Assembly: GCA_017652545.1 (NCBI GenBank)
Contig: JAGCAV010000200.1
Span: forward strand, 1-26,670
Length of the DNA stretch: 26,670 bases
Reading direction: 5' to 3'
Source: Lachnospiraceae bacterium
GTDB taxonomy: Bacteria > Bacillota_A > Clostridia > Lachnospirales > Lachnospiraceae
The notes under the pieces are model-generated. The model saw only the letters and a program-made list of their open reading frames with translations. It did not search any database and had not been told where the DNA came from. Shown here piece after piece: positions 1,821 to 26,670 of the stretch (the stretch's first letter is position 1; the number at the start of each line of letters is the position of its first letter). A program made the position numbers and the translations under genes.

Positions 1821-3155
1821 TCAGCCGTACCTTCTGTCGATTTCTTCCCGCATGATCCGTGTCCATCGGATCAGATGATCCGGATTCCCTCCGATCGTGT
1901 GATTGTCCTTCATGATAAATTCGCATATTCCGCCATAGGTCTCCTCGACCGCCCGGCGGCAGTCACGGCGTACCACATCCTCATTCATGTCCGGCATCGC
2001 CAGCGGCGTCGGCTTCAGCTTGACGCTGGCCACATAGTTCGTCCCCAGCAGCTCCGGGACTGTGTCGAACTTCGCCCACGGCGACACGGAAACATGCCGC
2101 AGATTCGGAATTTCCTTCACGTATTTCCAGCGCGGATCATACGGTTCACAGCACCCGTAGTGTACCAGTCCGAACCGTGATGCCAGTCTCTTGAAATGCG
2201 GAAGGATCAATTCGCCAAAGTGATCCGGATTGACGGAAACCGTTTCCTGGGCCTGCATCATTCCCCACATATCCCGGGTGCGCACCTTTCCCCCAAAGTC
2301 AGAAGCCGGAAGGTCTGTCGTGAAACCCTGACCGCCGGTGCCAAGGTATGTTTCATCATTATTCAGTGACAGAAGTCCCTGCTCTTCAAGCCAGTCAAAG
2401 CGCTTCATGACACCGTCTGTAATAAACGTCATCATGGTGGTCACCCACTCCGGCTCAGCCACGAAATCACACATGAAGTCTTCCATACCCCGAAGTTCCA
2501 CAAAACGATCCAGGAACGAATCGTCCCACTGCCATTTCATATTCAGGCGGCAGTTAAGAATGCCGCCGAAGACTTTGTTCGCATAGTCCAGCAGTTCATG
2601 ACTCTTGTCCCAGTCGACGGAAAGCCGGGGGAAGGAGAGTTTCTGAAAGTCCTCCTCATAGTCTTCAATGGCAGCAGAGATATGATAGGCGCCGCCCTTC
2701 ACGGACGAGTGCTCGATCTTCGGCCGGATCCCGAAGTCGTTGCCTGTCCAGAAGTAAGGGACATTGAAGTTTCTTGTGATCACCCGGTCATCCTGTATCA
2801 TCTCTGCTGAAAAGATGTCTTTCCGGAGCATATTCTCCCAGGTCCTGGCAAGCTGGTTCCTGCAGCGGATGACATCATTGGTCATGACCTCATTCCATCC
2901 GTTCTCCGGATCAACAAATATGACCGGCGTGTTATCCTTCAGGTCATGAAGCGCGGTCCAGCGTCCGGCTTTCTCTTTCATGGCATCGGTATCGGCGATG
3001 CGGGCGACATGTTCAGCCAGTGATCTGAGAAGCGAGATCTCTTCGTCCGTGAAGTCCAGGGTATAATTCATTTCAGATACAGGCGGATGCCTGTACAGGT
3101 ATTGCTCTCTGAAAAGCTCGATTCCCTTAAGGGACTGTTCTGTCTCAAAAGCCAT
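1821..3155 (-). CDS. URO-D superfamily protein, divergent copy 2
   Basis: This 444-residue protein aligns only distantly with the URO-D fold and is longer than copies 1 and 3. The C-terminal half carries 'LVHYGCCEPYDPRW' (H332, C335, C336) followed by 'IPNLRHVSVSPWAKFD' and 'KDNHTIGGNP'. These sit where MtaA-type enzymes have their H-x-C and final metal ligand. The N-terminal third (about 1-170) resembles nothing I recognise and is rich in aromatic and acidic residues. Start ATG 3155 follows AAGGAGGT at good spacing; an upstream extension has no such site. It is the first gene left of a divergent region shared with an AraC gene. The activity is unknown; a corrinoid- or zinc-linked methyl transfer is possible by family. 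Confidence 0.7.
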   Translation of the reverse strand: MAFETEQSLKGIELFREQYLYRHPPVSEMNYTLDFTDEEISLLRSLAEHVARIADTDAMKEKAGRWTALHDLKDNTPVIFVDPENGWNEVMTNDVIRCRNQLARTWENMLRKDIFSAEMIQDDRVITRNFNVPYFWTGNDFGIRPKIEHSSVKGGAYHISAAIEDYEEDFQKLSFPRLSVDWDKSHELLDYANKVFGGILNCRLNMKWQWDDSFLDRFVELRGMEDFMCDFVAEPEWVTTMMTFITDGVMKRFDWLEEQGLLSLNNDETYLGTGGQGFTTDLPASDFGGKVRTRDMWGMMQAQETVSVNPDHFGELILPHFKRLASRFGLVHYGCCEPYDPRWKYVKEIPNLRHVSVSPWAKFDTVPELLGTNYVASVKLKPTPLAMPDMNEDVVRRDCRRAVEETYGGICEFIMKDNHTIGGNPDHLIRWTRIMREEIDRRYG

Positions 3156-3198
3156 GGGTGTACCTCCTTGATAAAATTGTACCCGCAAATACGATTTA

Positions 3199-3227
3199 AT
3201 GATACTATTATGCGACATTATCAGCAA
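3199..3227 (-). promoter_or_regulatory. Promoter for URO-D copy 2
   Basis: Minus-strand TTGCTG (3227-3222), 17 bases, TATCAT (3204-3199). It lies 44 bases upstream of ATG 3155. Confidence 0.5.
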
Positions 3228-3263
3228 GCAGAATCTTACACGGGAGCACAAAGAGAATATTTT

Positions 3264-14136: not shown

Positions 14137-15099
14137 TTATTTGCTGATCGTTGCCCTGAGGGCGTCGATCGAAGTCTCAAGACCGGCTTCGACACTCATT
14201 GTCAGATCTTCCATCTCAAGGGAGACGTAGCCATTGTAGCCCATCATTCTGCAGACGGAGAAGAACTCTTTCCACCACTGCAGGTCACGACCGCAGCCGA
14301 CAGCGACGTAATTCCATGTTCTCTGGGGTGTGCAGGTGACCGGGAGGTTTTCAAAGAGACCGTCGATCCTGGCATTGTGCGCCTCGATCCTGGCATCCTT
14401 GCCATGCACATAGAAGATCTTGTCCCCAAGTGCCCAGGCTGCCTCGATCGGGTCGGCACCCTGAATCATCAGGTGGGAAGGATCCAGGTTCAGTCCGAGA
14501 ACGTCTGAATCTTTGCCGACTGCTTCGCAAAGCTGATTGAAGGTCCTCACATTGTGCACGAGGGTTCCGGGGAATTCTTCAATGGCGATCCGCACGCCTG
14601 CCTCTTTGGCGATACGGCAGGTCTCCGCCCACCATTCTCCGGCGACTTTCCACTGATATTTTACGCCCTCGGCCATATAGTTGAAGCCGTCATACTCGGG
14701 CCAGGAGATCGTGGAGACGAACCAGTTGGGGGTTTTGTCTCCGGGCGCGCCTGCCGGAAGTCCGGACATGGTGACAACGGTATCCACACCCATCTTGCCT
14801 GCCAGGATGATGGTGTCGCGGATGGTCCTGGAGTGGGTGTGTCCCATCGGTGTATCGATCAGGGGATTTCCGGAACAGTTCAGAGCAGAAACAGCAAGAC
14901 CGCGGTTTTTGATCTCAGCCAGGAAAGCCTCACGCTTCGCGTCATCTTTGATCAGTTCTTCGGCGGAAGGGATGAAGTTGCAGCCGCCCCAGCCGCCGGC
15001 GGTCATTTCAATGGCGTCAAGGCCGTAGGCCTTAACTTTGTCGAGCATCTCAATAAACGGGATCTTTCCGAAAACATCGGTACAGATAGAAAGTTTCAT
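14137..15099 (-). CDS. Sugar phosphate isomerase/epimerase-like TIM-barrel protein
   Basis: This 320-residue protein is of the xylose-isomerase-like TIM-barrel superfamily. Probable metal residues occur in 'IAIEEFPGT' (E174/E175), 'LGLNLDPSHLMIQGADP' (D206), 'FYVHGKDARI' (H232) and 'VSLEMEDLTM' (E295). The 'NLDPSHL..QG.DP' and 'HGKD.RI' pattern marks a subfamily usually found beside Gfo/Idh/MocA dehydrogenases, as here (15494-16675 lies just upstream). Relatives act on keto-sugars by isomerisation, epimerisation or beta-elimination; the reaction is not readable. It is less like IolI or IolE than the other TIM barrels in the window. Start ATG 15099 follows AGGAGG. Its promoter carries the 12-mer shared with the iolH-like and LacI-type genes. 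Confidence 0.8.
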   Translation of the reverse strand: MKLSICTDVFGKIPFIEMLDKVKAYGLDAIEMTAGGWGGCNFIPSAEELIKDDAKREAFLAEIKNRGLAVSALNCSGNPLIDTPMGHTHSRTIRDTIILAGKMGVDTVVTMSGLPAGAPGDKTPNWFVSTISWPEYDGFNYMAEGVKYQWKVAGEWWAETCRIAKEAGVRIAIEEFPGTLVHNVRTFNQLCEAVGKDSDVLGLNLDPSHLMIQGADPIEAAWALGDKIFYVHGKDARIEAHNARIDGLFENLPVTCTPQRTWNYVAVGCGRDLQWWKEFFSVCRMMGYNGYVSLEMEDLTMSVEAGLETSIDALRATISK

Positions 15100-15170
15100 A
15101 TATTCAATCCTCCTGCCAAAGGCAGCTGTGATATTCTGTTAATGCGTGCAAATATGTGCAATTATTTGAA

Positions 15171-15217
15171 ATGTGTTCATTTTTATCAAGGATATCATAT
15201 GGTTATGTAAAATGCAA
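15171..15217 (-). promoter_or_regulatory. Promoter with conserved AAATGAACACAT box
   Basis: Minus-strand TTGCAT (15217-15212), 17 bases, TATCCT (15194-15189), six bases, then AAATGAACACAT (15182-15171). An overlapping alternative is TTTACA, 17 bases, TGATAA. The six-base distance from -10 to box equals that at 24096-24119 and 26528-26551. Confidence 0.62.
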
Positions 15218-15306
15218 CATGACATTATTCACAAAAACACAGGCTGACATTTGTGACAAACCACTGTAAGTTTGTGCTTTTTACAAAATGCACATCATAT
15301 TGCCAA

Positions 15307-15318
15307 CAATGAACACAA
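15307..15318 (+). promoter_or_regulatory. Variant copy of the box (10 of 12 matches)
   Basis: CAATGAACACAA lies about 130 bases upstream of the perfect copy and in the opposite orientation. It could be an auxiliary site. Also in this 394-base gap (15100-15493) are TTTGTGACAAA (15250-15260) and ACAAAC/GTTTGT arms (15256-15275). No gene is seen. Confidence 0.35.
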
Positions 15319-15354
15319 CTATTGAAAATCCTGATGCCTCCCCGGAAACAATCC

Positions 15355-15417
15355 GGGAAAACAAAAGCCGACCAGGATCTAAATCAGGATATTATTGACT
15401 TAATCTCTCTGGTCGGC
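15355..15417 (-). terminator. Long-stem terminator for the leftward oxidoreductase
   Basis: GCCGACCAG/CTGGTCGGC (15367-15375 with 15409-15417) closes a long hairpin whose interior pairs imperfectly. Leftward it is followed directly by TTTTGTTTTCCC. It separates the oxidoreductase from the TIM-barrel gene, which has its own promoter. Confidence 0.7.
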
Positions 15418-15493
15418 GTTGTCATTTGTGATACACTGATCAGCGGTCAGTGTTCATTGTTCTCCAAAGGAACGGGTATGTTCCGGTTCAGTC

Positions 15494-16675
15494 TCAGTCG
15501 ACATTCACCCAGACAGCACCCTGATCCGCGGAGTCTGCGCAGGCGTTGATCCACTTGATCCCCTCGATGCCATGGTCGATGTCCGGATAGACCAGGTTCT
15601 TCAGGGTCTCTTCGTCGCCGCGCTCCTTTGCGTCCATCGCGATCGCGAAGCGCTTGTAGAGGTTGGACCAGGAGTCGATCAGTCCGGTGTAGTGAAGGGC
15701 ACCCAGCCGCTCATCCTCGAGTGCTTCCGGATAGAGGTAATCCATGGAGCGGTAGAGGATCTTCTCGGGTTCGCCCTGCACCTGGTAGCGCAGCTCATCG
15801 GGATGCATATCGTTCCATTCAAGAGAAGCTTTGGAGCCGACGATGCGGATGGTCTGGGATGAGTGGTCTCCGGCGTTGACGGCAGATGCCCACATACGGC
15901 CGACAGCGCCGCTCTCATAGCGCATCAGGCAGTAAGCATTGTCCTCAAGCGGATAGCGGGAACCGACAAATGCCTGGCGGTCGCAGAGAACCTGTTTGAG
16001 CTTCTCGCCCGGGCAGATCAGCTGGGACATATAATAGGTGTGTGTGGAGAGATCACCCAGAACGAATGATCTGCCGACTTTGGCGGGATCAACACGCCAC
16101 TTCTGACCCTCAGCCTTTACATCTGCTTCCGCGTCACAGCCGAAGCCGTGTGCGTAACGAAGGTCGATCATGTTGACTTTTCCGATATCGCCGCGCTCGA
16201 TCATGGCCCGCATCTGCAGCAGAAGGTCAAATCCGGAGAAACCATAGGTCACGCAGACGACCTTACCCTTTTCCTCGGCGAGTTTCTTGATTTCAAGTCC
16301 CTGCTCGACTTCGAAGAAAAGCGGCTTTTCGCAGATGACATGAAGACCTGCTTCGAGAGCTGCTTTTGTTGCCTCATAGTGCAGGAAGTTCGGCGTCGCA
16401 ATGTCAACAGCTTCGATGCCGTCCGGACGCTTGGCTTCTTCTGCGAACATGGTCTTGTAATCAGGATACAGACGATCCGGATCCATGCAGAGGTTGATGC
16501 CGAACTGCTTGCCGCGTTCGAAATCCACATCGAAGGCTGCCGCGGTCAGAACAAAGGAAGTATTGTCGCGCATGGCGCCCAGACGATGCTTGTAACCGAC
16601 GTTGCTGGTGGAACCTCCACCGACGATGCCCCAGCGGAAAGGTGCTCTTTTGATGATCTTTTCTCCGATGTACAT
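15494..16675 (-). CDS. Gfo/Idh/MocA-family NAD(P)-dependent dehydrogenase, 393 aa (paralog)
   Basis: It has the same length and architecture as the oxidoreductase at 4406-5587. The Rossmann motif is 'GIVGGGSTSNVG', the catalytic lysine is K117 in 'CEKPL', and D208/H212 lie in 'LGDLSTHTYYM'. Shared stretches include 'YPDY.TMFAEEAKR.DGIEAV.IATPN' and 'IRVVGSKAS.EW'. The stretch after 'RYAHGFG' differs most from the paralog, so the two probably oxidise different stereoisomers or glycosides. Start ATG 16675 follows AAAGGAG. It is divergent from an AraC gene and upstream of a TIM-barrel gene, mirroring the 3515-6560 operon. The cofactor is NAD or NADP; the ring substrate is unknown. Confidence 0.87.
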   Translation of the reverse strand: MYIGEKIIKRAPFRWGIVGGGSTSNVGYKHRLGAMRDNTSFVLTAAAFDVDFERGKQFGINLCMDPDRLYPDYKTMFAEEAKRPDGIEAVDIATPNFLHYEATKAALEAGLHVICEKPLFFEVEQGLEIKKLAEEKGKVVCVTYGFSGFDLLLQMRAMIERGDIGKVNMIDLRYAHGFGCDAEADVKAEGQKWRVDPAKVGRSFVLGDLSTHTYYMSQLICPGEKLKQVLCDRQAFVGSRYPLEDNAYCLMRYESGAVGRMWASAVNAGDHSSQTIRIVGSKASLEWNDMHPDELRYQVQGEPEKILYRSMDYLYPEALEDERLGALHYTGLIDSWSNLYKRFAIAMDAKERGDEETLKNLVYPDIDHGIEGIKWINACADSADQGAVWVNVD

Positions 16676-16773
16676 GTTTTTTCTCCTTTTCTTAAGATGA
16701 CTGATTTTTGCCTGTCTGTTCCTGAAAAAATGTTTTGTCTTGCTTTTTGTTTTTTGTTGTTTTCTTTTTGCTG

Positions 16774-16812
16774 AACTAAGCATATACTAAATACAGACAG
16801 TTGTAACTAAGC
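16774..16812 (+). repeat. Direct repeats AACTAAGC, 31 bp apart, in the divergent AraC/oxidoreductase region
   Basis: Perfect copies at 16774-16781 and 16805-16812 are about three helical turns apart, typical of AraC operator geometry. A minus-strand TTGACA (16823-16818) lies just beyond. The 189-base gap must hold both divergent promoters. Confidence 0.5.
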
Positions 16813-16864
16813 TTACTTGTCAAAAAACTCATCAATCTTGCTTTTTGCGAAGAGAGAAAATGAT

Positions 16865-17776
16865 ATGAAGAGTGTAGACATCGGTGTGCTTCCGCAGTCG
16901 GTCTGTTTTTCATTTATTCCCTCTGAGGAGGCAAAGCAGCTTTTCTTCTATCCGACTTGGTGCGGGCATTATTTCTGTTCATCCAGGTATTATATGAGGC
17001 GGCATTCCTATCCGCCGCTTCTCGTGATCTATATCAGAAGAGGTATTCTGAATGTGGAGTACCGGGGAGAACTGCAGCAGGCAAAAAAAGGGGACGTGGT
17101 TCTGCTTGACTGCCGGGAGCCGCATCATTATTTCGCGGAGAATAATCTGGAATTCTTCTACATGCATTATGACGGATCCAATTCCCACGAGATCACGCAG
17201 CATATTATTGACAGGAACGGCTGGCTGATGCGCCGGGAGGATGCGGATGCCGACGGCTCGCCCCGGTCAGACAGCCGGAATGAAAAGGTCGGCCTTCTGC
17301 TGCAGGATATGGTCTATCTTTACCAGAACAACCATGTGGAGGCTGCATATGAAAGCTCCATGCGGATCTACCGGCTTTTTGATATTCTGCTGTCGCCGAC
17401 CAGGCAGCTGCAGAGAGAGGCGTCTCCGATCGTCGCCTCGATCGAGTATATCCGCGCAAATTACAGAAATCCCATCACACTGGAGGAACTCTCCTCGATC
17501 GCCAGCCTGAGTCCTTACTATTTTTCTCACGCCTTTAAGCGCCAGACCGGATTTGCGCCGATGGAATATGTGATCAACACACGAATCGAGCACGCGAAAA
17601 CGCTGCTTCTGCGCACCGGCAAATCGGTCGAGGAGATCGCTGAGGAGGTCGGCTACGCGACAGGAGGAAGCCTGATCAATCTGTTTGTTAAAAGGGTCGG
17701 GGAGCCGCCGGGCCGGTACAGGAAAAACCACAGAAGTCTGGAACTGCCGGAAAAGGAGCGGGGAGGGGAAAAGTGA
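16865..17776 (+). CDS. AraC-family transcriptional regulator (copy 2)
   Basis: This 303-residue protein has an N-terminal cupin-like domain ('LLVIYIRRGILNVEYRGELQQAKKGDVVLLDCREPHHYF', about 50-100) and a C-terminal AraC domain (about 195-295, with 'ITLEELSSIASLSPYYFSHAFKR' and 'VEEIAEEVGYATGGSLINLF'). An acidic hydrophilic linker sits near 125-145. I chose ATG 16865; a TTG 48 bases upstream is open but lacks a ribosome site, and the site at the chosen start is also weak (AGAGAG). Its stop overlaps the next gene's GTG start by 4 bases (GTGA). It likely controls the divergent oxidoreductase and perhaps its own operon. Confidence 0.9.
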   Translation: MKSVDIGVLPQSVCFSFIPSEEAKQLFFYPTWCGHYFCSSRYYMRRHSYPPLLVIYIRRGILNVEYRGELQQAKKGDVVLLDCREPHHYFAENNLEFFYMHYDGSNSHEITQHIIDRNGWLMRREDADADGSPRSDSRNEKVGLLLQDMVYLYQNNHVEAAYESSMRIYRLFDILLSPTRQLQREASPIVASIEYIRANYRNPITLEELSSIASLSPYYFSHAFKRQTGFAPMEYVINTRIEHAKTLLLRTGKSVEEIAEEVGYATGGSLINLFVKRVGEPPGRYRKNHRSLELPEKERGGEK

Positions 17777-20229
17777 TCGTTATCGATAAGCCCCGGTACG
17801 CAGGGGAATTTGAAATCACGCTTGTCAATTATACGGAAAACAGGGTGTATAACAGTCCCTGTCTGGACATTCTGTATGTATTATATGGGAAAGTGAGGAT
17901 CCGGAGCCTTCAGAATCATCATGTGATCGTGCCGGGACATTTCTGTGTGATCAATCCGCTGGAGCTGTGCTATGCCTATACGGATGAGACCTGTTACGCG
18001 CTGCGCTTTTCCGTTTCGGAAAAGCTGGCAGGCCACAGGGATTCGTACATCGACTGCATGTCCTCCGACCGGCGCATGCCTGATGAGATCTATGACAACA
18101 TCCGCATGGAACTGGCCCGGATCTTTCAGCTTTACTACAGGGATGCCGAAAACAATCGTTTCATTATTTACAGTCATGTCTTCCGGCTGCTGGATATTCT
18201 GCAGAAATACTTTGTGGTCAACGGCGAGATCTTCCGGAAACATGAGGGGAGCCTGGAACTGCTGGAAAAAATGCTGGGTTATATGCAGCGCAACAGTCAG
18301 GAAAAACTGACGCTGAGCGGGATGGCTGAAGCATTTTACCTGTCCACAGGTCATATTTCAAGGCTGTTTCAGAAATATCTTCGGACGACGTTTTCTGATT
18401 ATCTTCGCGAACTGCGTACCATGAATGCCTACAGCCTGCTGCGAAGCGGCGACAGGTCGGTTACACAGATCGCCATGGAGACCGGATTTGGCTCCGTCAA
18501 CCAGATGATCGAGGCTTTTAAACGGCTGTACGGGGAGACACCCGGGAAGATCCGTTCTCTGACATCCGAGAAAAAAGAGCAGGCGGTGCAGGTGGACAAG
18601 GAGATACTGGATACCCTGCTGCGGTACGCCCATGAACTTCCCGAGGCGGTGCCGGAGATCAGACCCGTGGAGCGGACCGTTCACAGGATAGATAAACCGC
18701 TGGATGGAAAGAAATACGCGCCGGGATTTTTCAAGCTCATCTGTGTGGGCTTTGCCAAGGACATTCTCTATGCGCCGATCCAGGAACAGCTGCGCATCTG
18801 CCAGGAACAGATCGGGTTTGAGTACATCCGTTTTCACGGCATCTTCGATGAAGATATGATGGTATACAGAGAGGATGAAAACGGGAACCCTGTCTACTAT
18901 TTCAACTATCTGGATATGGTATATGATTATGTGCTTTCACTTGGCTTTAAACTGTTTGTGGAATTCAGTTATTATCCGAAAGCGCTCTCCTCGGATCCGG
19001 AACCCCTTTTTCATCGGATGAGCTACCCGACAGGGCTGCCAAGGTCCATGGACAGATGGTGCGAACTGGTAAAGAAAACGCTGCGCCACTGCATCAGCCG
19101 GTACGGAATCCGCGAGGTCAGGAGCTGGCGCTTCCGGGCAGGAGAAGCCCTGAATATCTATTTCCGGCGCATGACTTTTGAAGAATACCTGATGTTCTAT
19201 ACCAGGACCAGGCAGGCTGTGAAGGAGGTGGATGACAAGCTGATCTTCGGCGGACTGAACCTGGATTTCGGACAGCTGAATGTCAATGACCAGTCAGACC
19301 TTGACCAGTATCTTGCCCGCCTTTCTGCCGATGGAAATCTTCCTGATTTCTACAGTTTTCAGTGTTTTCACAATGAGTATACCACTGATTATGAGGCATC
19401 CGGGCTTTCGGCGAAAAGCCATATTGTGGAGCCTTTCTCCCTCAGCGAGGATGAGGACTACCTTGCCAACAATCTGCGCAAGGTCCGCAGGATCATCCGC
19501 AGGTATGATGACAGGAACAAGCCGGTCATTCTTGATACCTGGAATGCCACCATGTGGCAGCGTGACCTGCGGAATGATACCTGTTTCAAATCTGCTTTCC
19601 TCTTCAAAAACCTGCTGGAGAATGCCTCTCGCATCAACGCCTTCGGATACTGGGTCCTCAGCGATCTTTTTGAAGAGGTGGCTGCCACACCGCAGCTTTT
19701 TCACGGCGGCTACGGCCTGATGACCTACAATGGGATACCCAAGGCTGCTTTCAACGCCTTTGCGCTGATCCGCAGGCTGGGAGACCGGTTTGTGGAACGG
19801 GGAGACGGGTACTATGTGACCTGCTCATCGGATGAGAGCGTGCAGGTGGCACTGTACAATTACTGTCATTACGACACCCTTTCCAGGCAGCATGTTTTTG
19901 TGGACGGAAACAGCTATGACCGCTATGCGATGTATAAAAACGAGACATCCCGTGTGTTTGACCTTCTTCTGGACCTGCCTGACGGTGAATACCAGGTAGA
20001 AAAATACAGTATTTCGAGGCAGCCTGCCCACGGCAGCGCATATGAAGCCTGGCTGGACATGGGTGCTCCGGAAGGGATCAGCGGGGAACAGCTGGGCTAT
20101 CTGCAAAGAGGCGCGTTGCCCCATTACCGCCGCGAATCGTGTTTTTCAAAAGGAGGGCTGCCTTTGCAGGAGGAACTGGAAGCGCATGAGGTCCGTGTGA
20201 TCCTGATCCGGAAAACGCGGGCGGAGTGA
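17773..20229 (+). CDS. AraC-type regulator fused to a degenerate GH39-like domain
   Basis: This 818-residue protein has three parts: a cupin-like sensor (about 1-130), an AraC helix-turn-helix domain (about 160-270, 'LTLSGMAEAFYLSTGHISRLFQK' and 'VTQIAMETGFGSVNQMIEAFKR'), and a GH39 (xylosidase-like) TIM barrel plus beta domain (about 310-818). In GH39 enzymes the acid/base lies in a WNEP motif; the equivalent stretch reads 'WRFRAGEALN' (452-461). The nucleophile region, usually TEW, reads 'LDTWN' (587-591). Both glutamates appear lost, so the domain probably senses a ligand rather than cleaving glycosides. The GTG start is supported by GGGGAGGGG upstream and the GTGA overlap. This architecture is known in Clostridia as an AraC-GH39 regulator; the ligand is unknown. 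Confidence 0.88.
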   Translation: MIVIDKPRYAGEFEITLVNYTENRVYNSPCLDILYVLYGKVRIRSLQNHHVIVPGHFCVINPLELCYAYTDETCYALRFSVSEKLAGHRDSYIDCMSSDRRMPDEIYDNIRMELARIFQLYYRDAENNRFIIYSHVFRLLDILQKYFVVNGEIFRKHEGSLELLEKMLGYMQRNSQEKLTLSGMAEAFYLSTGHISRLFQKYLRTTFSDYLRELRTMNAYSLLRSGDRSVTQIAMETGFGSVNQMIEAFKRLYGETPGKIRSLTSEKKEQAVQVDKEILDTLLRYAHELPEAVPEIRPVERTVHRIDKPLDGKKYAPGFFKLICVGFAKDILYAPIQEQLRICQEQIGFEYIRFHGIFDEDMMVYREDENGNPVYYFNYLDMVYDYVLSLGFKLFVEFSYYPKALSSDPEPLFHRMSYPTGLPRSMDRWCELVKKTLRHCISRYGIREVRSWRFRAGEALNIYFRRMTFEEYLMFYTRTRQAVKEVDDKLIFGGLNLDFGQLNVNDQSDLDQYLARLSADGNLPDFYSFQCFHNEYTTDYEASGLSAKSHIVEPFSLSEDEDYLANNLRKVRRIIRRYDDRNKPVILDTWNATMWQRDLRNDTCFKSAFLFKNLLENASRINAFGYWVLSDLFEEVAATPQLFHGGYGLMTYNGIPKAAFNAFALIRRLGDRFVERGDGYYVTCSSDESVQVALYNYCHYDTLSRQHVFVDGNSYDRYAMYKNETSRVFDLLLDLPDGEYQVEKYSISRQPAHGSAYEAWLDMGAPEGISGEQLGYLQRGALPHYRRESCFSKGGLPLQEELEAHEVRVILIRKTRAE

Positions 20230-20570
20230 AGACGACATTCCGAACTGTCAGCCGGAAAAACAGCAGAAATATGGCGGGAACGTGTTATAAATTCAATATT
20301 GACCGGGAACAGAATGGAATCCAATGTAAAAATCATGATGTATTAATATATGATTTATGACATATCGGCTTTTCGAAAATCATCCTCTGTGCAGAAGCTT
20401 TGTTTTATGTACTGAAAAGAACAGGCAGCTGCACGGAAACGGATATTTTTGCGGGAATAAACCTGATAAAGTATCCGTAACAGAAACAGATACAGGGCGA
20501 AAACGGGAAAGATGTTATGTCAGGCTGCAACTGCCGCCGGGACGCGGCAGAAGTGAAAGAGAGGAGAAAC
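20230..20570 (+). other. Intergenic leader before the URO-D/iolI/iolG operon
   Basis: This 341-base gap has no credible gene. It holds a TTGACC (20299-20304) without a clear -10 partner, an inverted repeat ACGGATA/TATCCGT (20439-20445 with 20472-20478), and a short hairpin CTGCCGC/GCGGCAG (20531-20537 with 20544-20550) just before the ribosome site GAGGAG. I looked for a cobalamin riboswitch, which would fit a corrinoid methyltransferase, and did not find its conserved core. No terminator is visible after the AraC-GH39 gene, so read-through is possible. Confidence 0.4.
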
Positions 20571-21827
20571 ATGAATTCAAGAGAGAGAGTCAGATGCGCT
20601 TTTGAACACAGGCAGCCGGACAAGGTGGCGGTGGACTTTGGAGGAACAAGCACCTCCATGATCAATGCCCAGGTCGTCGACCAGCTGCGGGACTATTACG
20701 GACTGGAAAAACGTCCGCCGAAGATCAACGACATGTCTACCATGACAGCCTATGTGGAACCGGATCTGGCAGAGGCCATGGGCTGTGACGTTCAGCAGCT
20801 TTACAATTATGCGGACACCTACGGACACGTCAATACACAGTGGAAGGAGTGGGAATATCACGGCACACCGATCCTGATCCCTTCCAACTGCACTATTCAC
20901 GATGACGGAAAAGGCGGATACTTTGTCTATCCTGAGGGAGACGACACCGTGGCGCCTTCCGGACACATGCCCGCCGGCGGTTTCTACTTTGACAATCTGA
21001 CCCGTACACCGGAATTTGATGAAGATGAGGCGAACCCGGAGGACAACGCGGAAGACTATATGCCTGTTTCCGATGACCAGATTGCCTATCACAAGAAGGT
21101 ACTGGAGGAAGTGAAAGGCCTGAACAAGTGGATCAACGTGGGACCGGCCTATACGTGTGCCGGGGATGCCAACAACATCCCGGGACCGAACATCAAACAT
21201 CCCAAGGGAATCCGCAGCATCGCGGAATGGTATACAGCTCCGCTGCTCTATCCGGAATATGTGGAAGAAGTCTTCGCCATCGGCGCGGAGCGCTCCATTG
21301 AAAACCTGAAAAAATACTGGGAGATCTTCGGATCCGACATTGACATGATCGCCATTTGCGGGACGGACTTCGGTACACAGCGCGGCCCCATGATGTCTGC
21401 GGATACCTTCAAGGAATTCTATTTTCCTTTCTATAAGAAGGTAAATCACTGGATCCATGAAAATACAACATGGAAGACCTACAAGCATTGCTGCGGCGGC
21501 ATTTTCCCGCTGATCCCCTATTTCATCGAGGCGGAATTCGACGCGCTTAATCCCGTACAGTGCTCCGCGGAGGGCATGGATCCCAGGAAGCTGAAGGAAA
21601 CCTACGGCAAGGATATCCTGTTCTGGGGCGGCGGGGTGGATACGCAGCGTGTGCTTCCGTTCGGAACGCCGCAGGAGGTGCATGACCAGGTGCTGGAGCG
21701 GCTTGAGATCTTCTCAAAGGACGGCGGTTATGTGTTCAACACCATTCATAACATTCAGGTGAAAACACCTATCGCGAACATTGTGGCCATGATCGATGCC
21801 ATCAGGGAATTCAACGGGGACAAATAA
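20571..21827 (+). CDS. URO-D superfamily protein (MtaA/methyltransferase-like), copy 3
   Basis: This 418-residue protein carries URO-D/MtaA-type features: 'NSRERVRCAFEHRQPDKVAVDFGG' at the start, 'GTDFGTQRGPMMS' (264-276), H306-x-C308 in 'KHCCGG', 'FWGGGVDTQRVLPFGTPQEV' and 'NTIHNIQVKTPIANIVAMI'. H393 sits where MtaA has its third cysteine ligand, so a His/Cys/His zinc site is possible. Acidic inserts near 110-165 make it longer than HemE. It is the first gene of an operon with iolI (83 bases later) and iolG, which ties it to inositol metabolism. Demethylation of an O-methyl inositol is my inference; a non-methyl role is possible. Start ATG 20571 follows GAGGAG. Confidence 0.82.
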   Translation: MNSRERVRCAFEHRQPDKVAVDFGGTSTSMINAQVVDQLRDYYGLEKRPPKINDMSTMTAYVEPDLAEAMGCDVQQLYNYADTYGHVNTQWKEWEYHGTPILIPSNCTIHDDGKGGYFVYPEGDDTVAPSGHMPAGGFYFDNLTRTPEFDEDEANPEDNAEDYMPVSDDQIAYHKKVLEEVKGLNKWINVGPAYTCAGDANNIPGPNIKHPKGIRSIAEWYTAPLLYPEYVEEVFAIGAERSIENLKKYWEIFGSDIDMIAICGTDFGTQRGPMMSADTFKEFYFPFYKKVNHWIHENTTWKTYKHCCGGIFPLIPYFIEAEFDALNPVQCSAEGMDPRKLKETYGKDILFWGGGVDTQRVLPFGTPQEVHDQVLERLEIFSKDGGYVFNTIHNIQVKTPIANIVAMIDAIREFNGDK

Positions 21828-21909
21828 AAGGTTTACCTGCTTTGCACAGAGATTTACAGATGCACATATAAAACAACTCAAAAGACGGAATGAAAAGGAG
21901 GACTATCAG

Positions 21910-22779
21910 ATGAAACTCGGATTTAATGAAGCTAACGACCGTTTCTGCAAGGGACATACCGTTATGCAGGACCTGGAATACTGCGAGAAGTACGGATTTG
22001 ACTTTATCGACATCCAGTCTGAGTGCCTGGACAGGGATCTTGAGGCCGGCAAGGTCACGATCGAGGAGCTGGGTGAATGGTTCAAAACGCATCATCTGAA
22101 GATGCTCTCCTACAATGCGCTGGTCTTTTTCAACATGAAACCCACCCGGGAAGAGAAGGATGAAGTGATCGCCAAACTGGATGAGATCATTCGCCGCTGC
22201 AATATTCTTGGCTGCAAAATGATCGTGGTGGTTCCCAGCATGGATATGAAGGAGCGCGGCCTGAAGCCCTCCAGACAGGAGATCAGGGAGGATGCCGTTG
22301 CTGTCATCCGGGAAATGCTCAAGCACACCGAGCCTCATGGCATCAAACTTTCCATCGAATTCTGCGGCGCTCCGGACATGACCATCAACCGGTTTGACGA
22401 TGCCTGGGAAATCGTAAAGGAAGTGGATCATCCGCTGGTAGGCGTGACACTGGATCAGTTCCATTTCCATGCCATGGCTTCAGACTGGGCCACCCTGGAA
22501 AAGGCGGATGGAAAGAAGATCTTCGTCTGGCATGTGAACGGGTCAGAGGATGTTCCCTGCGGAGCCTATTATAATAATGATGAGATCCGTATGTGGATGG
22601 ATGGCGACGGCGACTGCCTGCCTCATGAGCGTTATGCAAGGACGCTCCGGGAAATCGGTTTTGACGGCGACTGCGCCACGATCGAGATCTTCCGTCCGGA
22701 ATACTATGAGATGGAACAGGAAGAGAACGTGAAAAAGTCCGCACAGGTTCTGAAGGACTTTGTAGCCAAATATTGCTGA
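21910..22779 (+). CDS. iolI: IolI-like inosose isomerase (copy 2)
   Basis: This 289-residue protein closely follows Bacillus IolI: 'KLGFNEAN', 'THHLKMLSYNALVFFN', 'IKLSIEFCGAPDMTINRFDDAWEIV', 'LDQFHFHAMASDWATLEKADGKKIFVWHVN' and 'IEIFRPEYY'. Predicted metal ligands are E150, D182, H208 and E259. It is closer to B. subtilis IolI than copy 1 is, and is about 11 residues longer, with an insert near 'MDMKERGLKPSRQE'. It should interconvert keto-inositols such as 2-keto-myo-inositol and 1-keto-D-chiro-inositol. Start ATG 21910 follows AAAAGGAGGA. It precedes iolG by 33 bases, so the pair can equilibrate inositol stereoisomers. Confidence 0.86.
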   Translation: MKLGFNEANDRFCKGHTVMQDLEYCEKYGFDFIDIQSECLDRDLEAGKVTIEELGEWFKTHHLKMLSYNALVFFNMKPTREEKDEVIAKLDEIIRRCNILGCKMIVVVPSMDMKERGLKPSRQEIREDAVAVIREMLKHTEPHGIKLSIEFCGAPDMTINRFDDAWEIVKEVDHPLVGVTLDQFHFHAMASDWATLEKADGKKIFVWHVNGSEDVPCGAYYNNDEIRMWMDGDGDCLPHERYARTLREIGFDGDCATIEIFRPEYYEMEQEENVKKSAQVLKDFVAKYC

Positions 22780-22812
22780 CATAAAAGATCAAGGATCAAG
22801 GAGGAAAACACA

Positions 22813-23826
22813 ATGCTCAGAGTCGGTCTTGTCGGATGTGGAATGATCGGAAGAGAACACGCAAAACGCCTGCAGTATAAGATCCAGGGCTGCGAGGTCG
22901 TGGCTGTGTGTGATGTAATGGAAGCTTCAGCCGCTGCGGTAGCGCAGATGATCGGTGTGGAGAAGGTATATACCGATGCCAATGCCCTGATTGCTGATCC
23001 CGATGTGGACGCGGTTGTGGTGACAACACCCGGACAGTTTCATAAGGGTCCGGTCCTCGCGGCCATCAAGGCCGGGAAACCGGTCTTCAGTGAAAAACCG
23101 CTGGCAACAACCGCTGCTGACTGCAAGGAGATCGTGGATGCGGAGATGGCTTCCGGCGCTCATCTTGTGCAGGTCGGTTTTATGAGACGGTATGACCGCG
23201 GTTACAGGCAGGTGCGTGAAGCAATCGCTTCAGGTGCATACGGCGTTCCCATGATCGTGAAGTGCACACACCGCGCAGAGGCTGTGGATGACAGCTATAC
23301 GACCCAGATGGCAGTGACGGATACGGCGATCCATGAGATAGATGTTCTGCCGTGGCTGCTCGGCGAAGGAGAAGAGTGGGACGAAGTTCAGGTCAGCTTC
23401 CCCAGGAACACCAAAAACGCGCATGAAGGCCTGCGTGACCCGCAGCTGATGACACTGCGTACAAAGAGCGGGATCATCTGCGTGCTGGAAGTCAATGTCA
23501 ACTGCCGTTTCGGATATGACATCAACTGTGAGGTGGTCTGTGAAGACGGCGTGATCAATCTTCCCTGCCCGTCCTTCCCGACGATCAGGAGCAACTTCGC
23601 TGTTTCCACCGCCATTGAGAAAAACTGGATCCTGCGCTTCATCGACTCCTATGATGTTGAGCTTCAGGACTGGGTTGATCATGTGGCTCAGGGCACCACA
23701 GGCGGTTCTTCCGCGTGGGACGGCTATGTGGCCGCGCTGACAGCGGACGCGCTGGTGGCTTCCCAGGAGAGCGGAAAGCCCGAGAAGGTCGTGACCGGTG
23801 GAAAACCCGAGTTCTATCAGGCGTAA
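22813..23826 (+). CDS. iolG: Inositol 2-dehydrogenase IolG
   Basis: This 337-residue protein matches B. subtilis IolG over its whole length: 'GMIGREH', 'FSEKPLATTAADC', 'LVQVGFMRRYDRGY', 'YTTQMAVTDTAIHEIDVLPWLL', 'NCRFGYDINCEVV' and 'SAWDGYVAALTADA'. GCGMIG (8-13) binds NAD. K95, D170 and H174 correspond to the catalytic K97, D172 and H176 of BsIDH. It oxidises myo-inositol (and in Bacillus D-chiro-inositol) to the keto form in the cytoplasm. Start ATG 22813 follows AAGGAGG. It is last in the URO-D/iolI/iolG operon and is followed by a strong terminator. This is the firmest substrate-level assignment in the window. Confidence 0.9.
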   Translation: MLRVGLVGCGMIGREHAKRLQYKIQGCEVVAVCDVMEASAAAVAQMIGVEKVYTDANALIADPDVDAVVVTTPGQFHKGPVLAAIKAGKPVFSEKPLATTAADCKEIVDAEMASGAHLVQVGFMRRYDRGYRQVREAIASGAYGVPMIVKCTHRAEAVDDSYTTQMAVTDTAIHEIDVLPWLLGEGEEWDEVQVSFPRNTKNAHEGLRDPQLMTLRTKSGIICVLEVNVNCRFGYDINCEVVCEDGVINLPCPSFPTIRSNFAVSTAIEKNWILRFIDSYDVELQDWVDHVAQGTTGGSSAWDGYVAALTADALVASQESGKPEKVVTGGKPEFYQA

Positions 23827-23858
23827 GAGTACTCATATTTAAATAATGAAGTAAGGCA

Positions 23859-23889
23859 GAGCCCGCCGCATCATGCGGCGGGCTCTTTT
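23859..23889 (+). terminator. Rho-independent terminator after iolG
   Basis: A perfect 12-bp GC-rich stem (23859-23870 with 23874-23885, loop TCA) followed by TTTTG. Confidence 0.92.
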
Positions 23890-24073
23890 GTCATTTCGTG
23901 ACCTCCCGTTCGCCGACACCTCTTCGAAAAGTGTTCTTTTTGTCTGTGCATAATGTGAAAAGCAAAAAGGCACAAGCCCTGCGAGAAAAAGAAAAAGAGA
24001 CCATGTACATCAATATTTGTTCTGTTTTTTGAAATTATCCGGTTGTTTTTTTCTGTGGCATGTGTTATTATGG

Positions 24074-24119
24074 TTGCAAACGAACATTATTTGACTATAA
24101 TGAACGCAAATGAACACAT
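24074..24119 (+). promoter_or_regulatory. Promoter with AAATGAACACAT box and phased GAAC repeats (iolH-like gene)
   Basis: TTGCAA (24074-24079), 16 bases, TATAAT (24096-24101), six bases, then AAATGAACACAT (24108-24119). ATGAACGCAA (24100-24109) and ATGAACACAT (24110-24119) are adjacent 10-base direct repeats. A further CGAACATT (24081) sits 20 bases upstream on the same helical face. The 323-base gap from 23827 to 24149 otherwise holds only the iolG terminator. Confidence 0.72.
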
Positions 24120-24149
24120 ATAAACACTGAATAAAGAAGGAGGATCGCT

Positions 24150-25067
24150 ATGAAAATCGCATTTGACGTGGATGTTCTTGCAAAGCAGATGAGCATCAAT
24201 GATATGGTGCACAAGGTGGCGGACTGGGGCTACAAATACATTGAACAGTCTCCCCATCCGAGGATCAACCCGTTCTACAAACACCCGCTGTTTTCCAAAG
24301 AGTGTGAGCAGGAGTACCGCCAGGCTCTGAAAGAGACAGGCGTTGAGATCTCTTCGTTTATCGTGGTCTACCGCTGGTCCGGCCCCACGGAAGAGCAGCG
24401 TCAGCACGCGGTGGCAAACTGGAAGCGGATGATCGAGATCGCTGTCAACATGGGAGTACCGGTCATCAACACGGAATTCTCCGGTGACCCGAACCAGCAG
24501 GAAATCTGCAACGGTATGTTCTTCCGCTCCATGGAGGAGCTGCTTCCCATCATCGAACGGGAAGGCCTGCGTGTGGAGATCCAGTCTCATCCGTATGATT
24601 TCTGTGAACTCAACGACGAGACCTGCGATATCGTGAAATCCTTCAGGTCAAAGAACCTGGGTTATGTGTACAGCACTTCCCACGGCTTCTTCTATGACCA
24701 GGGCAAGGGCGATGTCCGTCATATGCTCAAATACGCCGGTGAGGAGCTGACACATGTGCTGTTTGCGGATACCTGGAACCAGACCAAGGACTGCCGTTAC
24801 ATTCTGAATCCGCCGTGGCTGAATCAGCATGGAAGAGCAGATGTGACCATCCATCAGCATACCGCTATGGGCGAGGGCGAAGTGGACTTTGACGGCATTT
24901 TCGAGACCCTTCGTGAGATGGATTTCGCAAACAGACAGCTGAAAGCGGATGCTCCGAAGGTCGGCGGCGACAGCATCGCCTGCGTATCTTACTTTGGTTT
25001 CCCGGAGAAGATGGAAAAACAGGCGCCTGAAGCCAGAGAGAGGATTGAGAGAGAACTGCTCGGATAA
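24150..25067 (+). CDS. IolH-like sugar phosphate isomerase/epimerase-family protein
   Basis: This 305-residue TIM-barrel protein shares the pattern of Bacillus IolH and its relatives. 'MVHKVADWGYKYIEQSP' follows an IolH-like start, then 'FIVVYRWSGPTEEQRQHAVANWKRMIEIAVNMGV', 'NTEFSGDP', 'FFRSMEELLPIIEREGLRVEIQSHPYDF', 'LTHVLFADTWN' and 'HQHTAMGEGEVDFDGIFETL'. IolH's reaction is not firmly established even in Bacillus, so this entry is a family call, not a reaction. Unlike IolI it has S175/S177-H178 ('YSTSHG') at the usual aspartate ligand, so metal binding may differ. Start ATG 24150 follows AAGGAGGA. Its promoter carries the shared 12-mer, and an MFS gene follows. Confidence 0.66.
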   Translation: MKIAFDVDVLAKQMSINDMVHKVADWGYKYIEQSPHPRINPFYKHPLFSKECEQEYRQALKETGVEISSFIVVYRWSGPTEEQRQHAVANWKRMIEIAVNMGVPVINTEFSGDPNQQEICNGMFFRSMEELLPIIEREGLRVEIQSHPYDFCELNDETCDIVKSFRSKNLGYVYSTSHGFFYDQGKGDVRHMLKYAGEELTHVLFADTWNQTKDCRYILNPPWLNQHGRADVTIHQHTAMGEGEVDFDGIFETLREMDFANRQLKADAPKVGGDSIACVSYFGFPEKMEKQAPEARERIERELLG

Positions 25068-25136
25068 TACGCGGCCGCAGCAGAGCGTTATTCAAAGCTG
25101 TAAGAACAAATGAGTCACTTAAGAATATGAACATTT

Positions 25137-25212
25137 GGGGCGATACTTCCGACTCATTCGAATGAGTGAGACAGGAAGAATCGCCCCTGTTGGCTTGTTT
25201 GCTCAAACAAGC
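25137..25212 (+). other. Two stem-loops between the iolH-like and MFS genes
   Basis: The first hairpin pairs GGGGCGAT/ATCGCCCC (25137-25144 with 25180-25187), then CTTCC/GGAAG, around the perfect palindrome ACTCATTCGAATGAGT (25152-25167). The second is GCTTGTTTG/CAAACAAGC (25193-25201 with 25204-25212). Neither has a long U tract, so I read them as an attenuator or mRNA-processing site rather than a clear terminator. Confidence 0.6.
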
Positions 25213-25234
25213 AGGATAAAAGACGTACAGGACC

Positions 25235-26416
25235 ATGAATGGTATGAAAAGAATGGAAAAAGGGATCGGAAAGAATGAGAAAATACCGAAAAGCGCTCTG
25301 ATCATCTATGCGCTGTTTTTCACATACGCGCTTTCCACCGGGCTGCTCGGCACGTTTATGTCCACGCTGCTGGCGCAGTTCGATGTCTCCGTAGCTGACG
25401 GGGGCACTTTTACATTTGTTCAGTATCTGGGGAGCACGATCGCGACGCTTTTTTCCGGATGGCTTCTGTGCAGATACAGAAAATGGAACCTTGTGATTGC
25501 AGCGGGGGCAGTTCTTGCACTGAGTGATCTGATCGTCCGCGGCGTCTTTTCATTTCCGATGTTTCTGGTGGTCCTTTTTCTGCTGGGCATTTCAGGAAAG
25601 CTGGTGGATGTATCCGGGAACGCGCTGGTTGCCCAGGTTTTTTCCGCAAGGAAAGGGCTGTACATGAATCTGCTTCATGCAACCTTCGGCACCGGCAATT
25701 TTCTTGGACCGATTTTCGCCGGATGGGTCCTGACAGCCGGGATCGGATGGCAGACTTCCTTTGTGGCAACAGGGATTCTGGCTGCCGCGATCGTTGTGCT
25801 GACAGCAGGGCTGAAGCATTCGGGATCTTTGCCTGAGACTGCTCCGGATCAGGCTGAAAAGCTCCAGATCGGCAAATTGCTCTCAGAGCGAAGAGTAAGG
25901 ATGCTGATGCTCTCCCTTTTTTTCTACTGCGGACATCAGATCGGGATCTCCAGCTGGATCCCGCTGTTTATGGAGAGAGAATTTGGCGTTTCCGCCGGCA
26001 CTGCCGGCATTGGTGTATCCGTTTTCTGGCTCGGCCTGATTGCCGGCAGGCTTGCGTGTTCATGGCTGACCGGTTTTGTTGATGTGAAAAAGCTTCTGGC
26101 AGGAGGGCTGATCATTGCCACTGCGGGCTTTGCGGCAGGCATCCTGATCCATTCTCCGGCGGCAGTGATCACCGGCTGCGCGATTGCCGGTTTGTTTGCC
26201 GGTGCCGCCATACCGCTGTGCCTGATCCTCACCTATGATTCATATGCGCTGCTTCAGGGGACTGCTTCCATGCTGATGTTTGTCAGTATCAGCGCAGGAC
26301 AGCTTCTGTATCCCTGGCTGATGGGGATCGCAGCGGAACATGCCGGCCTGATGGCCTCAATGATGATCGATATCTTCTGCATGGCAGGAGCGGCGGTTAC
26401 GGCGATGCTTGTCTGA
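25235..26416 (+). CDS. MFS transporter
   Basis: This protein of up to 393 residues has about twelve hydrophobic segments and a charged central loop after the sixth (around 195-220, 'KHSGSLPETAPDQAEKLQIGKLLSERR'). The A-like loop reads 'SGWLLCRYRKW', a variant of the G-x-x-x-D/R-R/K motif, and 'HATFGTGNFLGPIFAGWVL' resembles sugar-permease MFS members. It would carry a small solute such as a sugar or cyclitol across the membrane. The start is uncertain: ATG 25235, 25244 and 25253 are all in frame, and AGGA at 25229-25232 spaces best with 25244. It lies 167 bases after the iolH-like gene, and a terminator follows it. It may be a second route for the locus substrate. Confidence 0.85.
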   Translation: MNGMKRMEKGIGKNEKIPKSALIIYALFFTYALSTGLLGTFMSTLLAQFDVSVADGGTFTFVQYLGSTIATLFSGWLLCRYRKWNLVIAAGAVLALSDLIVRGVFSFPMFLVVLFLLGISGKLVDVSGNALVAQVFSARKGLYMNLLHATFGTGNFLGPIFAGWVLTAGIGWQTSFVATGILAAAIVVLTAGLKHSGSLPETAPDQAEKLQIGKLLSERRVRMLMLSLFFYCGHQIGISSWIPLFMEREFGVSAGTAGIGVSVFWLGLIAGRLACSWLTGFVDVKKLLAGGLIIATAGFAAGILIHSPAAVITGCAIAGLFAGAAIPLCLILTYDSYALLQGTASMLMFVSISAGQLLYPWLMGIAAEHAGLMASMMIDIFCMAGAAVTAMLV

Positions 26417-26448
26417 ATACAATCATTTTTTGGGCTGACAGCCTTTAT

Positions 26449-26469
26449 GCCGGGAGTTTCCGGCTTTTT
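26449..26469 (+). terminator. Terminator after the MFS gene
   Basis: GCCGG/CCGGC stem with a 6-base loop (26449-26464), followed by TTTTT. A second short stem GGCTGACAGCC lies just upstream. Confidence 0.75.
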
Positions 26470-26504
26470 GCGTGCAGTATTATGACAACAGATGTGAAAA
26501 GAAC

Positions 26505-26551
26505 TTGCTTTTGAACACAGATATGTGTACAATGGTGATAAATGAACACAT
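26505..26551 (+). promoter_or_regulatory. Promoter of the LacI-type gene with AAATGAACACAT box
   Basis: TTGCTT (26505-26510), 17 bases, TACAAT (26528-26533) preceded by GTG, six bases, then AAATGAACACAT (26540-26551). A second near copy, TTTTGAACACAG, lies between -35 and -10 and forms a partial palindrome, ACACAGATATGTGT (26515-26528). This arrangement suggests autoregulation. Confidence 0.68.
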
Positions 26552-26617
26552 CATGGAAATGAGAGCTGCAGGATAGTTTTTTGAGTGTTTTTCATCGGAG
26601 GTCGGGAGGAAACGGAC

Positions 26618-26670
26618 ATGGCCGGTACAATGCAGCAGATCGCAGAACTGACAGGGGTCTCACGGGGGAC
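26618..26670 (+). CDS. LacI-family transcriptional regulator, N-terminal fragment
   Basis: Only 17 codons are in the window: M-A-G-T-M-Q-Q-I-A-E-L-T-G-V-S-R-G. This matches the first helices of the LacI helix-turn-helix ('t..dIAe.aGVS..TVSR'). Start ATG 26618 follows GGGAGGA. The effector domain lies outside, so the inducer is unknown. Because its own promoter and two others here share one box, it is the prime candidate regulator of the iolH-like/MFS operon and the TIM-barrel gene at 14137-15099. Confidence 0.8.
   Translation, partial: MAGTMQQIAELTGVSRG

Follow-up and report, generated by a model that had tools for sequence, protein, structure and literature searches.

Candidate multi-unit operators of a proposed CytR-like LacI-family inositol repressor, recognised through a 12-mer shared by three promoters of a Lachnospiraceae contig

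The DNA considered here is a stretch of 26,670 nucleotides from Lachnospiraceae bacterium (GTDB lineage Bacteria; Bacillota_A; Clostridia; Lachnospirales; Lachnospiraceae), namely positions 1 to 26,670 of the forward strand of contig JAGCAV010000200.1 (assembly GCA_017652545.1), which we will refer to as “the window”. It holds three perfect copies of the 12-mer AAATGAACACAT, at 15182-15171 (minus strand), 24108-24119 (plus) and 26540-26551 (plus), preceding a TIM-barrel gene, an iolH-like gene and a LacI-type regulator gene, respectively. An earlier inspection of the letters alone (the sequence-only reading) had noticed the identity of the three copies and had placed each of them six bases past a -10 hexamer, with a TTGC-type -35 at 16-17 bp; both observations hold for all three (TTGCAT-17-TATCCT-6-12-mer for the TIM-barrel gene, TTGCAA-16-TATAAT-6-12-mer for iolH and TTGCTT-17-TACAAT-6-12-mer for lacI). 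The loose pattern TTGCNN-N16/17-TANNNT has 8 matches on both strands of the window, and the three 12-mer promoters are among them. The conserved portion of the 12-mer is its inner octamer TGAACACA, a form of TGYGTKCA, which we call the unit. The genes, predicted promoters and units of the three regions are the following.

14137..15099, minus strand: TIM-barrel gene (AP_endonuc_2), predicted target
15189..15217, minus strand: predicted TIM-barrel promoter, -35 TTGCAT at 15217-15212, 17 bp, -10 TATCCT at 15194-15189
15171..15182, minus strand: 12-mer AAATGAACACAT with unit TGAACACA (15172-15179), sequence match
15143..15150, minus strand: second exact unit, TGCACGCA, downstream of the TIM-barrel promoter, sequence match
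15153-15160: one-mismatch unit TGCACATA, 10 bp from the unit at 15143..15150, sequence match
15310..15317, plus strand: third exact unit, TGAACACA, upstream of the TIM-barrel promoter, sequence match
15449-15456: further one-mismatch unit, upstream of the TIM-barrel promoter, sequence match
24074..24101, plus strand: predicted iolH promoter, -35 TTGCAA, 16 bp, -10 TATAAT
24101..24118, plus strand: predicted iolH tandem operator, exact units TGAACGCA (24101-24108) and TGAACACA (24111-24118), 10 bp apart
24121-24128, plus strand: weaker third unit of the iolH operator, TAAACACT
24150..25067, plus strand: iolH-like gene, predicted target
26469..26476, minus strand: unit TGCACGCA, upstream of the lacI promoter, sequence match
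26505..26533, plus strand: predicted lacI promoter, -35 TTGCTT at 26505-26510, 17 bp, -10 TACAAT at 26528-26533
26512-26519, plus strand: unit TGAACACA between the lacI -35 and -10, sequence match
26524-26531, minus strand: one-mismatch unit TGTACACA between the lacI -35 and -10, sequence match
26540..26551, plus strand: 12-mer AAATGAACACAT with unit TGAACACA (26543-26550), sequence match
26618..26670, plus strand: start of the LacI-type gene, beginning MAGTMQQIAELTGVSRG and cut by the window end, proposed factor

No other 12-mer occurs at least three times in the window. Dinucleotide shuffles of the window hold a mean of 0.11 words of that kind, and since 11 of 100 shuffles contain at least one, the triple occurrence taken by itself is only moderately surprising. 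The decisive points are the location in three promoters and the conservation of the core in other genomes. The exact word was found at none of 80 related loci (fetched for their neighbouring iolH gene) and in none of 6 relative genomes, and was rejected as a conserved entity; the finding therefore rests on the conserved part inside it.

Within the window, 8 exact TGMACRCA units lie in 3,307 intergenic bp vs 3 in 23,363 coding bp (Fisher 6e-6), and all 8 fall in the three promoters, where the shuffled mean is 0.26 and none of 2,000 shuffles reaches 8; these enrichment figures, which speak for the interpretation given below, are partly circular, because the degenerate unit was defined after viewing the window and its relatives. 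The count took 26619 as the border of the lacI gene; the start codon is at 26618, which shifts the border by one base. The spelling of the unit is TGCGTGCA/TGCACGCA in most relatives and TGTGTTCA/TGAACACA in the window and at locus L009, and TGCACGCA, the main form of the relatives, is present in two of the three promoters without being built in by the 12-mer. The iolH copy of the 12-mer is part of a 10-bp tandem, AATGAACGCA plus AATGAACACA. Units of the TIM-barrel promoter sit at about +1, about 30 bp further downstream and about 130 bp upstream, and those of the lacI promoter before the -35, inside the -35/-10 interval and near +1. The earlier idea of one operator at +1 is too simple: a shared operator is supported, but it comprises several units, of which the 12-mer is one, and others lie between the lacI -35 and -10 or flank the TIM-barrel promoter.

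The recurrence of the unit with lacI was followed across genomes, duplicate or partial LacI loci (L081, L087, L094, L122, L126, L130, L134) being left out of the lacI promoter and protein counts. De novo motif discovery by expectation-maximization (EM) is not circular, unlike the unit counts of the window. Applied to 30 lacI upstream regions, 29 from close orthologues and one from the hinge-bearing L098, it gave TGCGTGCtTT as top motif, with a log-likelihood of 70.7; the 6 mononucleotide shuffles, for which the number of restarts was halved, reached 23.8-31.4. In this analysis, widths of 18 and 20 brought up the same core with more scattered flanks (122.0 and 132.4 vs at most 68.5 and 73.4 in shuffles). 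A stricter run on 28 regions, leaving out L098_lacI and the near-copy L096_lacI, returned TGCACGCAAT, the reverse complement of the TGCGTGC motif (65.3, vs 31.5-37.7 in 12 dinucleotide shuffles given as many restarts). The lacI promoter of L009 reads TATATAA and then TGAACACAaaTGAACACA, which is the layout of the window iolH promoter. Over the 80 loci, intergenic units amount to 11 in 6,244 bp (1.76 per kb) at the 5 loci with a close lacI, 25 in 27,457 bp (0.91 per kb) at the 14 with hinge-bearing paralogues, and 15 in 94,599 bp (0.16 per kb) at the 61 with neither type, coding DNA having 0.10-0.28 per kb. Among the 78 loci testable (L002 and L024 had less than 200 bp upstream), a unit within 300 bp upstream of iolH was found at 3 of 5, 0 of 14 and 1 of 59 loci, respectively; at L011 this region is common to the divergent lacI. 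Furthermore, 19 regions beside iol or lacI genes, picked by the analyst, hold 58 seven-base units in 5,379 bp, and 18 of them contain at least one. A search of 16 genomes for tandem pairs gave 18 matches vs 4 for the reversed pattern; five of the 18 stand beside lacI or iol genes, one of these being a hinge-bearing lacI, and many others lie inside reading frames. The sequence-only reading had named the LacI protein or an AraC protein as the factor of the regulon. Motif, density and the 18 of 19 regions support the former; an AraC operator was rejected because the units go with lacI, recurring upstream of its orthologues and standing near background at iolH loci lacking them, with no AraC protein tested directly.

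Seventeen codons of the LacI gene lie inside the window. Three database proteins (P0125, P0127 and P0128) have the same first 17 residues and share about 74% identity with the L009 protein; this orthologue (L009/P0121) carries PF00356 and PF13407, and with them the N-terminal LacI helix-turn-helix (HTH) and periplasmic-binding-type sensor domain that place it in the LacI/GalR family. The subfamily signature VSRGTVDR was found at 19 of the 80 iolH loci (L081 repeats L001). Of 397 genomes of the family, 24 had a LacI match at E <= 1e-60; of 391 sampled from the class, one had a match at E <= 1e-55, namely G004 itself. A DNA similarity search with 24000-26670 matched 5 of 145 genomes, always inside the first 1,070 bases, and none of the 145 resembled its MFS-lacI part. 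The 29 close LacI proteins, both members of the near-copy pair L135 and L096 included, form one clade (support 99/98). The hinge helix of the family, with its conserved Ala/Leu, connects the DNA-binding and sensor domains. By a pattern devised for this analysis, none of the 29 has its signature after the DNA-binding domain, vs 28 of 29 more distant relatives, and the signature is equally absent from the 117 scorable proteins among 120 listed of 497 homologues (P0144, P0152 and P0212 were left out, as the pattern failed to place their linker). The linkers of the close clade are variable, 11-26 residues long and mostly basic. The missing hinge is a deviation inside the LacI family, the HTH and sensor domains keeping the placement. 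One distant SRGTVDR LacI, L099 (G076), is likewise without the signature, and its grouping with the hinge-less clade has modest support (90/78).

The geometry of the units was evaluated over 48 regions holding 84 exact 7-base units, with at least one unit in 33 regions (L011_lacI and L096_lacI were left out, and L098_lacI also in a repeat). There were 7 head-to-tail pairs in the 10-11 bp range, each of them at 10 bp, vs 0.66-0.71 expected, and none of 2,000 placements was as high; without the window regions there were 6 vs 0.62 expected. Pair distances were in helical phase (p = 0.0035 at 10.5 bp; 0.0085 for the best of periods 9.5-11.5), and remained so when the window regions or the L134 locus were left out (p 0.0105 and 0.0165, 6 pairs each). 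The 10-bp preference is visible with exact units over iol and lacI regions combined. Units inverted at 10 bp, looked for as a sign of the even palindrome with a central CG that is usual for LacI/GalR operators, occur in none of the 29 close-clade lacI promoters vs 6 of 29 distant ones. CG-centred palindromes of the same half-site do lie upstream of the hinge-bearing SRGTVDR paralogues L058, L059, L061, L069 and L078, and L107, another of these paralogues, has a CA-centred one. The non-palindromic box, earlier considered odd for a LacI operator, is a real peculiarity that accompanies the missing hinge-helix signature of the clade.

Ten proteins, among them neighbours of the LacI clade, were compared with NCBIfam models. 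Neighbours reached the cut-off for IolC (two), IolE, IolG, a class II aldolase and methylmalonate-semialdehyde dehydrogenase (MMSDH); IolD, cut by a locus end, scored 619 of 715 bits, below it, and inspection of N-terminal sequences by eye added further iol neighbours. The regulator gene is therefore adjacent to inositol catabolism genes, with units in their promoters, and is probably an IolR by role.

In published systems, the nearest likeness is to CytR of Escherichia coli, whose octamers are bound in direct or inverted orientation at variable spacing on one helix face (PMC3454398, PMC5934615). Both are LacI-family regulators, and the phasing described above likewise points to half-sites of variable orientation on one helical face. 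The two are not orthologues (26% identity over 176 residues, with CytR on a very long separate branch), CytR serves nucleosides and not inositol, the octamers differ, and most CytR sites lie between CRP sites, whereas no such partner is known here. The CytR linker is presumably flexible and unstructured, to go by the title of a reference. According to Camas et al., a hinge residue inserts into the central CG in every structural study, and exceptions are rare, a CytR paper being among those cited (PMC2978694). Ravcheev et al. distinguish 7 LacI groups for inositol; they searched palindromes of 14-24 bp and report palindromic motifs (PMC4052901). LacI-type control of inositol genes would be common to those IolR groups and the present case, and the palindromic form of the motifs separates them. 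The hinge-bearing SRGTVDR paralogues (L058, L059, L061, L069, L078) share the VSRGTVDR signature and the half-site TGCGTRCA, and differ in keeping the hinge-helix signature and the even CG-centred palindrome upstream. The DeoR-type IolR of Bacillus subtilis, which represses inositol genes via repeated boxes, belongs to another protein family. The open literature searched, with RegPrecise and subscription papers outside its scope, describes LacI-type IolR groups and CytR, and not a hinge-less inositol regulator or a tandem operator of this kind.

We consider it probable that the operators recognised here, each built of several units such as the one in the 12-mer, belong to an autoregulated, CytR-like LacI-family inositol repressor (IolR) encoded from 26618. 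Without ligand, the repressor would occupy phased units that overlap or adjoin the -10/+1 of the three promoters (TIM-barrel, iolH and lacI), and, because of this position, the bound protein should block RNA polymerase at all three; lacI would be autoregulated through the units of its own promoter, and a compound of the inositol pathway might release the repressor. The lack of a hinge in the clade would fit operators made of head-to-tail half-sites at 10 bp or in helical phase, and not CG-centred palindromes, as in CytR.

Several observations weigh against this interpretation. The missing hinge of the window LacI itself is taken from homologues sharing its 17 residues, and in the AlphaFold2 model the L009 linker is a helix of moderate confidence (49-63, pLDDT, i.e., predicted local distance difference test, about 72), not disordered; the hinge of L058 is also modelled as a helix (50-57, pLDDT block 59). 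The units of the window lacI promoter are inverted, not tandem, the L009 lacI-iolH gap holds no unit, and the unit of L088, L139 and L146 is placed, by eye, in a stem with an A- or T-run, possibly a terminator. An exact 8-mer was present within 300 bp in 5 of 15 close lacI regions, and 11 of 30 best EM sites score below 10 bits. The 7 head-to-tail pairs lack independence, since L119 and L126 come from the same genome and the L134 locus matches that of L126. When one mismatch is permitted, direct spacing of 10-11 bp occurs in 2 + 4 of 29 lacI promoters, and is not distinct there from 15 bp (5) or inverted 23 bp (5). Besides, a hinge-bearing Oscillospiraceae/Butyricicoccaceae group (L017, L033, L034, L064, L065) has 10-bp direct repeats, so hinge loss is not required for them, and the simple rule that a lost hinge leads to tandem units is weakened; together with the helix model of the L009 linker, this weakens a simple cause-effect relationship between hinge and spacing. 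In L033 and L064 the direct repeats sit well upstream of the likely promoter, and the repeats of this group may serve activation or be the operator of a different gene.

The most serious of the other explanations keeps the same LacI protein as factor, and in this respect overlaps with the interpretation above, but sees an ordinary dimer on degenerate palindromes, the octamer being a near-palindrome (TGC-GT-GCA), the tandem superficial and the hinge irrelevant. The symmetric ends of TGCGTGCA, the CG- and CA-centred palindromes of the same half-site in the paralogues, the direct repeats of the hinge-bearing group and the mixed spacings in close lacI promoters would all suit it; nonetheless, TGTGTTCA of the window and L009 breaks the near-symmetry with the 10-bp tandem kept, the 10-bp inverted form is confined to the distant lacI promoters, and the close clade is without the hinge signature, so that we regard this explanation as unlikely, while giving it more weight than the remaining ones. 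Tandem repeats would also suit a DeoR-type IolR, and the units might be the operator of such a regulator, or of an AraC protein of the window. Head-to-tail 10-bp repeats are indeed unusual for LacI, the motifs of Ravcheev et al. being palindromes (PMC4052901), and the window holds three AraC-type genes, one fused to glycoside hydrolase family 39 (GH39). Against another regulator stand the recurrence of units upstream of SRGTVDR lacI with near-background levels elsewhere at iolH loci, and the absence of an exact unit upstream of the window AraC genes. A Pfam scan of 20 window proteins gave no DeoR match, other loci not having been scanned for DeoR. A regulator of this sort appears improbable to us. 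As for a chance origin of the three copies, as an AT-rich word close to promoters, shuffles do produce such triplets at times, but the offset from the -10 is identical in all three copies, further units lie in the same promoters, and the unit recurs with the same gene in other genomes by EM, density and region counts; this explanation, already disfavoured, is hardly credible.

On a broader scale, it is conceivable, albeit somewhat short of probable, that a clade of LacI inositol repressors of Lachnospiraceae-like gut bacteria lost the hinge helix once and moved from CG palindromes to octamer arrays of free orientation and helical phase, which would represent a second, independent origin of the CytR design, with no known CRP partner and across a whole regulon. 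If so, the SRGTVDR proteins would form a natural series with one recognition signature, running from palindrome readers that bear the hinge to tandem readers that lack it, and allowing tests of how linker and operator geometry change in concert during LacI-family evolution. The operator could also be used to find inositol regulons in gut Clostridia that searches limited to palindromes could miss.

Regarding the remaining genes of the window, the product of gene 22813 matched an inositol dehydrogenase model strongly, below the cut-off (429 of 540 bits), the TIM-barrel protein has weak similarity to IolE (35 bits, cut-off 290), and the iolH-like gene, with no NCBIfam match above cut-off, is named after database names. 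The GH39 fusion, at 17773-20229 (plus strand), combines an AraC-type HTH and a GH39 domain in a single 818-residue protein. Proteins of the uroporphyrinogen-decarboxylase fold are encoded at 546-1760 and 20571-21827, amid TIM-barrel and Gfo/Idh/MocA genes; perhaps, and this is a guess, they remove methyl groups from a methylated cyclitol or sugar. The product of 1821-3251, without a Pfam match, resembles these two proteins.

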